Shown here piece by piece: positions 11,138-15,083 of a DNA stretch of 64,000 nt. Position numbers and translations under genes: made by a program. Below the pieces are notes generated by a model. The model was not told where the DNA came from and did no database searches. It saw nothing but the letters and a program-made list of their open reading frames with translations. Where the stretch lies: contig CANJQJ010000002.1 of NCBI GenBank assembly GCA_947476425.1, forward strand, positions 62,001-126,000. The letters are read 5' to 3'. Origin of the DNA: Sphingomonadaceae bacterium. GTDB lineage: Bacteria; Pseudomonadota; Alphaproteobacteria; Sphingomonadales; Sphingomonadaceae. Each line of letters starts with the position of its first letter. The first letter of the stretch is position 1.

Positions 11138-11686
11138 ATGGCTACTCCGATACGGCCGGCTGACGGCACAATGACACTTACCGAGATGAAGGAGTTCGCC
11201 GGGTTTCCGGGGGCGACGCAGCGTTATATCCGGCGTTCGCTGGATATCGGGCTCGGCCGCGAGGACGCGCTTGAGCGCTGGTCTCGCGATGTAATCGAGG
11301 CGGCAAGCATCAAGGCGCAGACACGCTTTTATGGCCGGCTTGATCATATCCGCGAACTCGTTCCGGACGATAGCGGCCTCGATGCCGTCGAAGTTTTCAT
11401 CGCGCCGTTGATCACCGTTTCGGCATTCGATCTCGGGCAGGATCGACTCGGCAGCTTCAGTGCCTATCGATTTCTCTACGAGCGATTGATCGGAGCCAAT
11501 GTCCGGCCGTGGCTGCCAGGTGCTTTCTGCGCCGCCGCTGCGCTGCCGCACCTTCATCCCGAAAAGCGCCGCATCCTGCTGCAGTCGATCAGCGAAGCAG
11601 CGGCGACAGCACCCGGCTGGTCGAGCCGCGAGCCGGTCTTCTATCCGGAATGGGTCGAAAAGGTCGAGACGCGTCTCGCCAACTGA
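11138..11686 (+). CDS. Protein of unknown function, alpha-helical
   Basis: 182 residues starting at ATG 11138. I do not recognise the family. It appears soluble and mostly helical, with one Cys, no signal peptide and no clear catalytic motif. The central part reads SIKAQTRFYGRLDHIRELVP and the end FYPEWVEKVETRLAN. A TTGC/GCAA palindrome upstream hints at granule-associated regulation, but the protein does not look like a standard phasin. It ends 28 bp before a strong terminator hairpin and converges on the thioesterase/ATP-grasp gene. Confidence 0.75.
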   Translation: MATPIRPADGTMTLTEMKEFAGFPGATQRYIRRSLDIGLGREDALERWSRDVIEAASIKAQTRFYGRLDHIRELVPDDSGLDAVEVFIAPLITVSAFDLGQDRLGSFSAYRFLYERLIGANVRPWLPGAFCAAAALPHLHPEKRRILLQSISEAAATAPGWSSREPVFYPEWVEKVETRLAN

Positions 11687-11740: not shown

Positions 11741-13699
11741 CTATTGGAATCGCTTGACGGCAAGCCAGTCGCGAAGCGCATGCGCAACACGTACCGATGG
11801 GCGCTGCTCCCGCCCGACCATCGCCAGCCCGCGACGCGTCAGGATAGGCGCCCTTACCGGAAGGTCGAGGGTGGCGATCGGTCGGACGTGCGGCGTCATC
11901 ACCGATTGAGGAAATAATGCCAACATCGCGCCACTTGCCTGAAATCCCTCGAGAAGCAGGTGAGCGGTCGGCGTAGCGCGCGCATTCATTTCGATCAGAA
12001 TCGCTTCGCCATCGGGCCGCAGCATGAAATCGAATCCGCTGAACCCGGACAGGCCGAGTTCGGCAATCAGGCGAGTTGCCGTATTCGACATTCCAGCATG
12101 CTCGATGATCCGAACCACGGTCGCCGGCCCGGTCGCCGATGCCGATTCCTCCACCTCCATGCAGACGAGGCCGAGCAAACGACCGTCAAGCGAAGCTCCG
12201 GTCACGATCGCAGGCCGGCCAACGACAAATGACTGGAGATTGATGGCTGGTCCCGATTGTCGTGCCCACTGCACGAAGGACAGATTGTCGCGATCGACGA
12301 TCATGCGTTTCAACGCTCGCCAGAGCGGAGGCGGCTGAGCGATGCTCCGCCAGATTTCGGCAATGCTTTCCCGATCGCGGATAATCGCAACGCCACGCCC
12401 ACCCCAGCTGCCGTCGGTCTTGAGCACCAGCGGCAGTCCCTCCCTGGAGGCCGAGTCATCGACGACTTCCCTGCAGTCGATCGCGCGCGTGCGCGGCGTT
12501 GCGATGCCAAGTGACTCTGCGGTCGCTGCAAGATCCGAGCGCGACATGATCCGCAACGATCGGTCGATCAATGCCGCCATCGCCGGGTCTTGCATACGCG
12601 CCCGTTCGGCGAGCTTGCCCAACAAGCGAATCGCATGTTCATCGTCGGGCACGATCAGGTCGGGGCCGGCGCGCGCAATCGCGGTTCGCAAATCCCGCAG
12701 GGGCGTCGATCGCGACAGGGGAAATTGCGCATCGATTCCCTCGACATCCTCGAGTGGATGGCGAGGCGGCCGGCAAGCGCTCACTGCGAAGCCAGCCTCT
12801 TCGAGCGCCTGACCGAGTCGCGCGGTGGAAAACCACCGCATCGTCGTAACGAGCATCGGTCGCTGGAATCCGGTCATCGGTCGCAGGCCGGGCCAGCGCC
12901 CGTCACCAAGCGCGATCTCATGATCGATTACGGCCGCTACCGCCGCGACCGAGTCGGGATCCCGCAATATGGATAGATGATCCGCTTCGATCCGCCTCAA
13001 GCTGACATTTTGGACCAGTCCGCGCCACAACGCTGCCGGATCAACCCCGAAATGCCGATCGTGAATCGCGGCGATCAGCACGATCTTCTGCGTATAGGGG
13101 CCTGGTCGGTAACGCCCGAACAATCGCCTTATCGGCGTGGTACCGGTCACTCCACCTCCAGCGCGGCTTCGAAAGCGCGCTGCCAATCGTCGCGTTCGAA
13201 GCGCCAACTCGGCGCTTGCCGCCGCCGGACGCATCGTCGCGATACGGCTGATCTGCACTGCAGACCGTCGCGCAAGTGCCCGGAGCCATATATTGCGGGG
13301 CCAATGACTTTCGTCGAGCGCTGGCTCGATCAGGAAGAGATGTTCGATAGATTCGCCGGCGGCGATCAGCTGCCCCGCCATTTCGAACGCGACCAGTGCG
13401 CCGAAGCTGTAGCCGCCCAGACGATAGGGGCCATTTGGCTGCCTTGATCTCACTCGAACGATCGCGAGCGCCGCCATCTCTTCGACGGACGCGAACCGTG
13501 CATCGGTATCGATGGCAATCCCGATGGTGCCTTCCTTCGCGGCAAGCGCTTCAGCCAGCGCTCGCAGCTCCTCGGGCGCACATCCGAGTCCCGGCACCAG
13601 GAACAGCGGCGTTCCTTCGCCTTCGCGCAGTATCTTGAGATCGACCCGGCCGACTTTCGCCGCCGTCGCGCCCGCATCAGCTGCGAGCGGTCGGGTCAT
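11741..13699 (-). CDS. Thioesterase / ATP-grasp fusion protein
   Basis: 652 residues in two parts. Residues 1-262 form an alpha/beta-hydrolase of the NRPS/PKS thioesterase type: LFLVPGLGC, nucleophile elbow GYSFG with Ser98, a likely Asp near 129, and His241 in EADH. Residues 282-652 form an ATP-grasp ligase: lysine 427 in LVLKTDGSWGGRG and metal ligands Glu570/Asn572 in LIEMNAR. ATP-grasp enzymes join a carboxylate to an amine or other nucleophile through an acyl phosphate. A thioesterase joined to such a ligase suggests release of an acyl chain from a carrier and its condensation, but no carrier protein, synthase or adenylation domain is nearby. ATG overlaps the stop of the upstream flavoprotein gene (ATGA). 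Product unknown. Confidence 0.82.
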   Translation of the reverse strand: MTRPLAADAGATAAKVGRVDLKILREGEGTPLFLVPGLGCAPEELRALAEALAAKEGTIGIAIDTDARFASVEEMAALAIVRVRSRQPNGPYRLGGYSFGALVAFEMAGQLIAAGESIEHLFLIEPALDESHWPRNIWLRALARRSAVQISRIATMRPAAASAELALRTRRLAARFRSRAGGGVTGTTPIRRLFGRYRPGPYTQKIVLIAAIHDRHFGVDPAALWRGLVQNVSLRRIEADHLSILRDPDSVAAVAAVIDHEIALGDGRWPGLRPMTGFQRPMLVTTMRWFSTARLGQALEEAGFAVSACRPPRHPLEDVEGIDAQFPLSRSTPLRDLRTAIARAGPDLIVPDDEHAIRLLGKLAERARMQDPAMAALIDRSLRIMSRSDLAATAESLGIATPRTRAIDCREVVDDSASREGLPLVLKTDGSWGGRGVAIIRDRESIAEIWRSIAQPPPLWRALKRMIVDRDNLSFVQWARQSGPAINLQSFVVGRPAIVTGASLDGRLLGLVCMEVEESASATGPATVVRIIEHAGMSNTATRLIAELGLSGFSGFDFMLRPDGEAILIEMNARATPTAHLLLEGFQASGAMLALFPQSVMTPHVRPIATLDLPVRAPILTRRGLAMVGREQRPSVRVAHALRDWLAVKRFQ

Positions 13700-14922
13700 G
13701 CGGTTGCGACTTCGACTGGCGAGAGAGACACAGTGCCGCGCTTGGCAAGCACTTGCGCGATGCGCGGGGCTACATATTTGGCGCCGACCATGAATCGCAT
13801 CAAGGGTCCGAAACTGTTCACCGCCGCTGGACCGACAAAATACAACCCGGGCACCGAGCTCTCGAAGTTACCCGACAGCAGCGGCATCCCGCGATGCGTG
13901 CGCACGTTCCCGCGCAAGCCGGGATCGATCAGCTTTATCCGCTCGACGTAGACCGCATAGCCCGTCGCCGCGATGACCTGGTCCGCCAGCACCTCACGCA
14001 TCGTGCCATCGCAATCCCGCACGCCAAGCCTGGCTCGCGCACCATCGGCAGCCGCCGTGACCACGCTTCCACCCACAAGGGCATCTACACCCGCTTCGAA
14101 CCGCGCCTTCATCCCCCAGGCTGCCTTCGGGCCGAGATGTCGCTTGATGATAAACAATCGCAACGGGCCGGGCAGAAACCGGAACAGTCCGGGAAAAACC
14201 TCGAAAAGCCGCGATCGCAAGCCCGGTCCGATGCCCGATGACGGGTGCCGAATCCGTTTCCAGAGCGATCTTCGGCCCACGCCCGCTGGATTTGCGAAGC
14301 GGACCTGATGGCTTCGCGCGATCAATTGCACACGCGTGCCCGCTTCGGCGAGCAGCGTGGCAAGATCGACCGCTGACGATCCTCCGCCGATGACGCAGAT
14401 CTCGCGCCCAGCGAAGCTCGAAACATCGTGATGGTCGGCGCTGTGAGATACCAGATGACGCGGCAATCCGGCCAGTTCCGGTGGCATGTGGGCGAAATGG
14501 GCGATCCCAACCGCAACCACGACTTGCCGCGCTTGAAGTATCTCGCCGTTTTCGAGCCGAATCGAGAAACCCTCCGTGTCCCGATCGAGAGCGACGACGT
14601 CCAGTTCCTCCAACTCGGGAACGAACCGACGCTGGAAATCAAGCGCATACTCGTTGAACAGCGCCAGGCTGATTGCATGATCAGTGGCTCCATAGGGAAC
14701 GCCATGCGCCCGGCAATAAGCCTCCAGCGTCCCTTCCCGGCGGGGATCGGAAAGGTTCGACGCGAATCCATCGGACTTCAACATCATCCCAGCCGGCATA
14801 TGATCGCGCCAGGTAGCCAGCGGTTTGCCGAATATGCGACAGGAAACATCGCTCGCACGAAGATGCGCTGCGACGGACAGGCCATATGGCCCCGCACCGA
14901 TAATGACGACATCAATTGGCAC
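13696..14922 (-). CDS. FAD-dependent oxidoreductase, N-hydroxylase/FMO-like
   Basis: About 408 residues. The N-terminal FAD site is DVVIIGAGPYGLSVAAHL; a second nucleotide site CVIGGGSSAVDLATLL lies mid-protein; ATGY near residue 335 is typical of flavin monooxygenases and lysine/ornithine N-hydroxylases. WRDHMPAGMMLKSDGFASN resembles the substrate-side motif of that group. The start chosen is GTG 14922, which has GGGGAG 9 bp upstream; ATG 14952 is possible but has no nearby Shine-Dalgarno. It is the first gene of a two-gene operon with the thioesterase/ATP-grasp protein, so it probably oxidises the substrate or product of that enzyme. It is divergent from uvrA. Confidence 0.82.
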   Translation of the reverse strand: MPIDVVIIGAGPYGLSVAAHLRASDVSCRIFGKPLATWRDHMPAGMMLKSDGFASNLSDPRREGTLEAYCRAHGVPYGATDHAISLALFNEYALDFQRRFVPELEELDVVALDRDTEGFSIRLENGEILQARQVVVAVGIAHFAHMPPELAGLPRHLVSHSADHHDVSSFAGREICVIGGGSSAVDLATLLAEAGTRVQLIARSHQVRFANPAGVGRRSLWKRIRHPSSGIGPGLRSRLFEVFPGLFRFLPGPLRLFIIKRHLGPKAAWGMKARFEAGVDALVGGSVVTAAADGARARLGVRDCDGTMREVLADQVIAATGYAVYVERIKLIDPGLRGNVRTHRGMPLLSGNFESSVPGLYFVGPAAVNSFGPLMRFMVGAKYVAPRIAQVLAKRGTVSLSPVEVATA

Positions 14923-15083
14923 GCTGAACGGCTCCCCATCGAGCAGCAACATCCAATCACGTTCTAAATCAATCCCCTTTCCAGTTGGTTTATCTTCGGT
15001 TCGTCGGAAAAGCGGCTGCAGCCCCCCTTGCGGAGGGGCCGGTGTGACGCCATTTCATGCCCGTCAGGGGCCTTGCCGAACGC

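Follow-up and report, generated by a model that had tools for sequence, protein, structure and literature searches.

What does a two-gene operon do when one product is a flavoprotein with features of N-hydroxylases, the other is a thioesterase fused to an ATP-grasp ligase, and no carrier protein is encoded beside them? Such a pair lies in the window i.e. a stretch of 64,000 nucleotides from contig CANJQJ010000002.1 of a Sphingomonadaceae bacterium (assembly GCA_947476425.1). A sequence-only reading of this DNA had noted that such thioesterases normally act on carrier-bound chains and had suggested either a minimal pathway or one that works with a carrier coded elsewhere. We refer to the flavoprotein as FL, to the thioesterase–ATP-grasp fusion as TE-AG, to its thioesterase domain as TE, and to its ATP-grasp part, or a homologue lacking the thioesterase, as AG. 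We found that FL and a TE-less AG form a conserved but patchy module in Alphaproteobacteria other than the sampled sphingomonads and in Acidobacteria. The reading that we favour, tentatively and as somewhat short of probable, is that FL and AG make up a module independent of non-ribosomal peptide synthetases (NRPS) in which an amine is N-oxygenated and joined to a carboxylate, in many cases for exopolysaccharide (EPS), and that TE is an added domain for unloading a carrier.

The gene pair and its conserved residues

The two genes run in the same direction and overlap by an ATGA, with open reading frames of 418 and 652 residues, just as had been read from the letters alone. The features of the pair are:

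13696..14952, minus strand: FL, an FAD/NAD(P)H flavoprotein of 418 residues with a predicted PvdA/KtzI-like N-oxygenase fold (open reading frame, Pfam, alignment, model)
11741..13699, minus strand: TE-AG, a thioesterase and an ATP-grasp ligase fused, 652 residues (open reading frame, Pfam)
12926..13609, minus strand: thioesterase domain of TE-AG, residues 31-258, with Ser98 and His241 (Pfam PF00975, residues)
11744..12862, minus strand: ATP-grasp domain of TE-AG, about residues 280-652, with Lys427, Glu570 and Asn572 (Pfam, alignment, model)
13696..13699, minus strand: ATGA, the 4-base stop/start overlap of FL with TE-AG

The PF00975 match to TE (residues 31-258) has an E value of 2.3e-20; the serine motif GYSFG contains Ser98, the C-terminal His241 is present, and the catalytic acid may be Glu125 or Asp129, the alignment being ambiguous at that point. 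Pfam matches to ATP-grasp families in the C-terminal half are weaker, with two above their cut-offs. This half contains Lys427, GSWGGRGV, Glu570 and Asn572, which we take to be the ATP-binding lysine, the glycine-rich loop and an acidic/asparagine metal site, respectively. The five residues on which the sequence-only reading had based an NRPS-type thioesterase and an ATP-grasp ligase are thus all at the positions that it gave.

We aligned the window AG with 36 homologues (alignment A5) and the window FL with 22 (A6), the homologues being picked from the loci described below and not taken exhaustively. All 37 rows of A5 have Lys427 and Glu570, and at least 90% of them have Asn572. FL carries the motifs GAGPYGLS (FAD) and GGGSSA (NAD(P)), and the patterns GAGPxGLS and GxGxSA are invariant across the 23 rows of A6, all of which, the window FL included, match the Lys_Orn_oxgnase profile at E <= 0.001.

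Distribution of the pair

In our genome searches a permissive first pass was followed by the scoring of no more than 3 to 24 candidates in each genome, and all presence counts are therefore lower bounds. Within the window's own family, TE-AG was found in 1 of 397 sampled genomes and FL (at E <= 1e-50) in 1 of 361, in both cases the window's only. On these counts a sphingomonad-wide pathway was set aside, and the conserved adjacency in many sphingomonads to which the sequence-only reading had looked for support was found instead in other Alphaproteobacteria and in Acidobacteria.

When the AG half was compared with a plasmid collection (tblastn), it matched two plasmids of one Granulicella tundricola strain, with 35% and 30% identity, and both of these AGs adjoin a divergent flavoprotein that is 42-43% identical to FL. 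Of the 385 genomes in an alphaproteobacterial sample, 6 had FL matches; besides the window's own, three were 44-49% identical over nearly the full length and had AG adjacent in every case, and two weaker ones (35-38%) had no AG match within the 20 kb examined. In family f5 the ATP-grasp profile found AG in 36 of 96 genomes, all of them in genus g100, with 42 matches in total. We extended all 42 to wider loci, some of which were shortened by contig ends, and FL was adjacent to AG at 27 of them (27 of the 40 that were informative, two being cut by contig ends), always in divergent orientation. Family f66 had AG in 8 of 75 genomes, and at 7 of the 8 loci AG is followed by FL on the same strand. 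A sample of the phylum (398 genomes) had AG in four, the window's own included. The AG and FL trees have several groupings in common within g100 (these trees omit called proteins shorter than 330 residues i.e. 1 of 47 for AG and 2 of 32 for FL). Because the pairing recurs in other lineages, it goes beyond chance.

Some more distant relatives were also seen. The FL relatives on plasmids of Bradyrhizobium and Mesorhizobium lie among glycosyltransferases, with no AG match and with another ATP-grasp-type ligase nearby. On the Bradyrhizobium plasmid (L009:9989-12324) the distant FL directly precedes, with a 4-base overlap, an ATP-grasp protein that had no tblastn match to AG; this pair sits between two asnB genes in an EPS-like cluster i.e. 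it shows the same pairing with a different ligase. The plasmid matches H36 and H39-H41 from tblastn were outside the neighbourhood survey. A weaker FL subfamily, about 33% identical, occurs without AG at L025 and L026 (genomes G657 and G561), and at L026 it lies amid what appear by eye to be a GMC oxidoreductase and Rieske-type oxygenases, perhaps in a catabolic setting. An FL-less AG homologue at L126:6069-7226 (genome G1260) has a weak, sub-cut-off match to the Pfam family 'sugar-transfer associated ATP-grasp' and has non-EPS surroundings.

Exopolysaccharide setting of the homologues

We called a stretch an EPS locus if it encoded Wzc, or at least three of a sugar transferase, a WecG-like protein, a Wzx-like protein, a GT2 glycosyltransferase and a Wzy-like protein. 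By this definition 28 of the 42 AG loci in g100 lie inside an EPS locus, usually with AG directly before Wzc, and this setting, the commonest for the homologues, was not visible from the window alone. The usual g100 order is sugar transferase, WecG-like protein, flippase-like protein, GT2, polymerase-like protein, GT2, sometimes GH10, then FL on the opposite strand if it is present, AG and Wzc. In L035 the sugar transferase family is supported by Pfam, as are GT2, GH10 and Wzz in L022; the flippase, polymerase and WecG labels come from reading the sequences by eye. FL is present in 15 of the 28 EPS-type loci, absent from 12 and cut in one.

Similar surroundings were seen outside g100. One of the Granulicella pairs adjoins genes for Wzz, export, flippase and O-antigen ligase proteins, and the other is not by an EPS cluster. 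In genome G992, AG has a sugar transferase nearby (Pfam), together with a probable GH8 protein and a CpsD-like kinase (both by eye).

A methyltransferase is a recurrent third partner of the pair, of FkbM type or matching Methyltransf_24 (L122:7163-8017, L123:12252-13091, L023:8798-9649, L024:12039-12893 and L083:8524-9447); at three f66 loci an FkbM-type methyltransferase follows the pair.

Predicted folds and comparison with known systems

The model of FL, built with 22 homologues (pLDDT 86), is closest to PvdA (3s61; Z 32.7, root-mean-square deviation (rmsd) 2.8, 364 residues aligned, 19% identity), followed by KtzI (Z 32.0), DesB (31.7) and putrescine N-hydroxylase (31.1), and then by the disulfide reductase YpdA (29.8, 310 aligned) and flavin-containing monooxygenases (FMOs; 28.8). 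The suggestion that FL is N-hydroxylase-like agrees with this predicted ranking of solved folds. By sequence, unlike in the fold ranking, reductase-type profiles and chains score best. Compared with PvdA, KtzI, DesB, SidA and putrescine N-hydroxylase, FL has a similar predicted fold along almost its entire length (Z 27.9-32.7, 364-372 residues aligned), and it shares with the flavin N-hydroxylases the FAD and NAD(P) motifs and a Lys_Orn_oxgnase match above its cut-off; it differs from them in being only 16-19% identical and in having an ATP-grasp ligase as its partner. Flavin N-hydroxylases are usually partnered with an acyltransferase, an IucA/IucC synthetase or an NRPS. An NRPS-independent siderophore pathway was set aside, as the partner ligase is an ATP-grasp protein without an IucA/IucC match in Pfam (only this partner, and not the remaining genome, was checked for IucA/IucC).

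The model of AG, built with 36 homologues (pLDDT 89), is nearest to PurK (3k5h; Z 22.0, rmsd 4.6, 310 aligned) and PurT (Z 21-22 for the two), then to biotin carboxylase and carbamoyl-phosphate synthetase, with L-amino acid ligase lower (19.1). This predicted match fixes the superfamily and not the substrate. As a stand-alone, amide-forming ATP-grasp enzyme acting without NRPS, AG would resemble the L-amino acid ligases RizA and YwfE, and also the dapdiamide ligase DdaF and the fungal E-64 ligase (PMC12568646); among solved ligases RizA was third in the Foldseek ranking and YwfE had Z 19.1, with identities of 12-16%. In E-64 biosynthesis, amide formation by a stand-alone ATP-grasp enzyme is reported to follow an oxygenase step, the oxidative partner being an Fe(II)/alpha-ketoglutarate oxygenase, unlike FL (PMC12568646).

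A parallel in polysaccharide loci is the C-terminal TupA-like ATP-grasp domain of Cj1438 from the Campylobacter capsule, which is reported to form amides between the glucuronic acid carboxylate and either serinol-phosphate or ethanolamine-phosphate (PMC11800379). Like the AG homologues, it is an ATP-grasp domain encoded in a polysaccharide locus, in this case fused to a glycosyltransferase (PMC11800379); it differs in that no TupA-like family was among the Pfam matches of AG at E <= 0.001, and in that the window copy lies outside an EPS locus. Metazoan C7orf58 is reported as an ATP-grasp–esterase fusion whose predicted role is the modification of polymers at the cell surface by amino acids or peptides (PMC2824669). 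Another account (PMC12419801) gave nothing that bears on the pair.

In line with the sequence-only reading, which knew of no described pathway with this pair, we found no characterised homologue or description of it in the literature searched, which covered few subscription papers and is not proof that none exists. That literature assigned no function to the two-gene module, which occurs in both Alphaproteobacteria and Acidobacteria and often takes a fixed place in EPS loci.

The thioesterase and carrier proteins

Among the loci examined, TE is fused to AG in the window only. We saw no other TE-AG fusion: TE matched L081 alone among 49 loci and none of another 8. The TE matches L002-L004 had no AG or FL match in the stretch examined, and a scan of genome contigs returned 3 loci only, with matches to the thioesterase. 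As the relatives examined lack it, TE is an exception, a lineage-specific addition to the pair and not its core.

The exceptional locus L081 (g100) encodes an AMP-forming ligase and a phosphopantetheine carrier–thioesterase protein beside FL. Its thioesterase is 33-34% identical to the window TE over 265-276 columns and stands beside the same FL/AG pair; it is a separate gene product with its own peptidyl carrier domain, whereas the window TE is fused to AG with no carrier near. This neighbour is the best sign that the module may handle carrier-bound units, it lends comparative support, from one locus, to the earlier idea of a carrier coded elsewhere, and the fusion may in the same way tie the FL-AG module to carrier chemistry. 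L092 and L093 also have AMP-forming ligase-like genes close to the pair, but by eye these resemble ordinary acyl-CoA ligases; no carrier was noticed there, and they were discounted.

The source genome has four matches to carrier domains, all on contigs other than the window's, and no condensation domain anywhere. A broken NRPS cluster was rejected, since the genome has no condensation domain and the relatives lack TE (ketosynthases were not searched genome-wide). One carrier locus, L029 (G000:C31:12001-31500), encodes a carrier protein, an acyl-CoA ligase (TIGR03098) and a decarboxylase (TIGR03099) of exosortase A type, an export protein, exosortase A (XrtA) and an XrtA-type amidotransferase (TIGR03108). 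As a guess, this exosortase/EPS locus is a candidate source of the carrier for the thioesterase of TE-AG. At L030:1513-3251 (G000:C29), also in the source genome, a carrier gene overlaps one whose product matches DltB (D-alanyl transfer) weakly and below the cut-off.

Proposed function and alternatives

If the favoured reading of an N-oxygenating and carboxylate-coupling module is right, FL would oxygenate a free amine at its nitrogen with the help of FAD, NAD(P)H and O2; ATP-dependent activation of a carboxylate by the ATP-grasp half, and its coupling to the amine or hydroxylamine, would give an amide or a hydroxamate; and TE would take an acyl or aminoacyl group off a carrier coded elsewhere, by hydrolysis or transfer, e.g. 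off the one beside the AMP-forming ligase in the exosortase/EPS locus of this genome. Because several lineages have relatives of the pair inside EPS loci of Wzx/Wzy type, the product at these loci is probably a substituent on the polysaccharide or its precursor, by analogy with the amidation of glucuronic acid by Cj1438. A more specific version, in which FL and AG attach an N-oxygenated amine (as hydroxylamine or hydroxamate) to uronic acids or other carboxylates of the EPS to give a metal-binding polymer, and in which the sphingomonad fusion is a carrier-fed ATP-grasp ligase that takes its acyl or aminoacyl unit straight from a carrier protein, seems to us improbable.

A number of results weigh against the favoured reading. 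The window pair lies outside any EPS locus, as judged from 14 scanned flanking open reading frames; 14 of the 42 AG loci in g100 have no EPS cluster in the stretch examined; and the other 28 represent far fewer independent events, because many of the g100 EPS loci share one ancestor. AG stands alone at 13 of the 42 g100 loci, at one of the 8 f66 loci, in family f193 (2 of 250 genomes have AG, and both lack FL in the stretch examined) and in genome G852, so AG can act without FL. Conversely, FL relatives without a nearby AG match are found on plasmids of Mesorhizobium, Streptomyces (two), Bradyrhizobium and Deinococcus, and in genomes G657 and G561. A carrier–thioesterase protein beside the pair occurs at one locus only (L081).

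The absence of an EPS locus at some sites would also suit a pathway for a small soluble metabolite with no tie to polysaccharide, in which FL N-hydroxylates an amine, AG couples an acid to it and TE releases or supplies an acyl group, the product being e.g. a hydroxamate chelator or a signal. Besides the window pair, 12 g100 pairs have no EPS locus in the stretch examined (L024, L072, L073, L079, L080, L083, L084, L085, L092, L093, L094 and L096), the FkbM-type methyltransferases at the three f66 loci and the Methyltransf_24 proteins at L024 and L083 suit small-molecule tailoring, and a thioesterase with carrier chemistry fits a metabolite. However, by eye no transporter, regulator or receptor is consistently with the pair in the listed loci, and EPS loci are the commonest setting of AG, so that we regard a soluble product as unlikely, though a serious contender. 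A second alternative is that FL does not N-oxygenate but is another NAD(P)H flavoenzyme with a different service to the ligase, either a reductase like YpdA or thioredoxin reductase or an FMO that oxidises S or C. In Pfam, FL scores higher with Pyr_redox_3 (73.8 bits) than with Lys_Orn_oxgnase (44.4 bits); the best sequence matches also include a YpdA model and ferredoxin/thioredoxin-reductase-type chains, with YpdA third; a profile of the presumed substrate region (residues 36-115) brought up no N-hydroxylase when compared with solved structures; and the YpdA fold (Z 29.8) comes close behind the N-hydroxylases. Yet N-hydroxylases occupy structural ranks 1-9 with 364-369 residues aligned, compared with rank 10 and 310 residues for YpdA, and the Lys_Orn_oxgnase score is well clear of its cut-off of 21.3 bits and is matched throughout A6. 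We think such a change of chemistry unlikely.

The window copy itself departs from its relatives in the ligase. Its AG keeps 56 of the 82 columns that are conserved at >=85% in the 36 homologues, and lacks a segment after LIExN in which all 36 have an Asp and a Leu, and both points count against the favoured reading; its branch in the AG tree is also long (1.66 changes per column). The fusion may have altered the substrate of the ligase, or AG may be weakening. The 26 changed columns, the long branch and the lack of any other TE-AG in 397 family genomes would be expected if the window copy were a diverging or decaying remnant, with FL intact, the ATP-grasp half functionless and the fused TE the sole active part. 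Against this, the frame is open, the translational overlap is tight, the core Lys, Glu and Asn are kept, the predicted AG fold is confident (pLDDT 89, as above) and FL keeps 110 of the 127 columns conserved at >=85% in its 22 homologues, and we judge a remnant quite improbable.

If N-oxygenated amides are indeed placed on polysaccharides, they would represent a novel type of surface decoration that may bind metals; if the product is a small molecule, the pair would be a compact NRPS-free route, possibly missed by standard cluster finders. The fusion in the window and the carrier–thioesterase neighbour at L081 offer a direct and testable link between ATP-grasp amide formation and carrier-bound substrates.

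Neighbourhood of the pair in the window

We scanned 14 flanking open reading frames (from 262 to 25581) with Pfam, smaller frames and those beyond 25.6 kb being outside the scan. No carrier, adenylation or ketosynthase domain was found in these 14, which agrees with what had been noted from the sequence.

A 182-residue protein without a Pfam family is encoded next to the pair (11138-11686, plus strand) and is present in 12 of 17 other family genomes sampled. The pair is absent, in the stretch examined, from all 12 of the fetched loci of this gene; an empty insertion site is not demonstrable from them, because uvrA is also missing from those loci. The GC content at third codon positions (GC3) of the pair genes is 0.682 and 0.686, at the low end in comparison with 16 neighbours (0.685-0.794). 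Recent foreign DNA was considered as the origin of the pair and set aside.

The flanking frames encode, by Pfam, a nitrite/sulfite reductase, a PAPS reductase, peptidases of families M23 and M17, an NlpC/P60 protein, radical-SAM proteins, a semialdehyde dehydrogenase, NUDIX, CHRD and FBPase proteins, a DAP epimerase and an SRP54-type GTPase, with one frame having no match. UvrA and homoserine dehydrogenase I, which we named by eye from the translations, also flank the pair.

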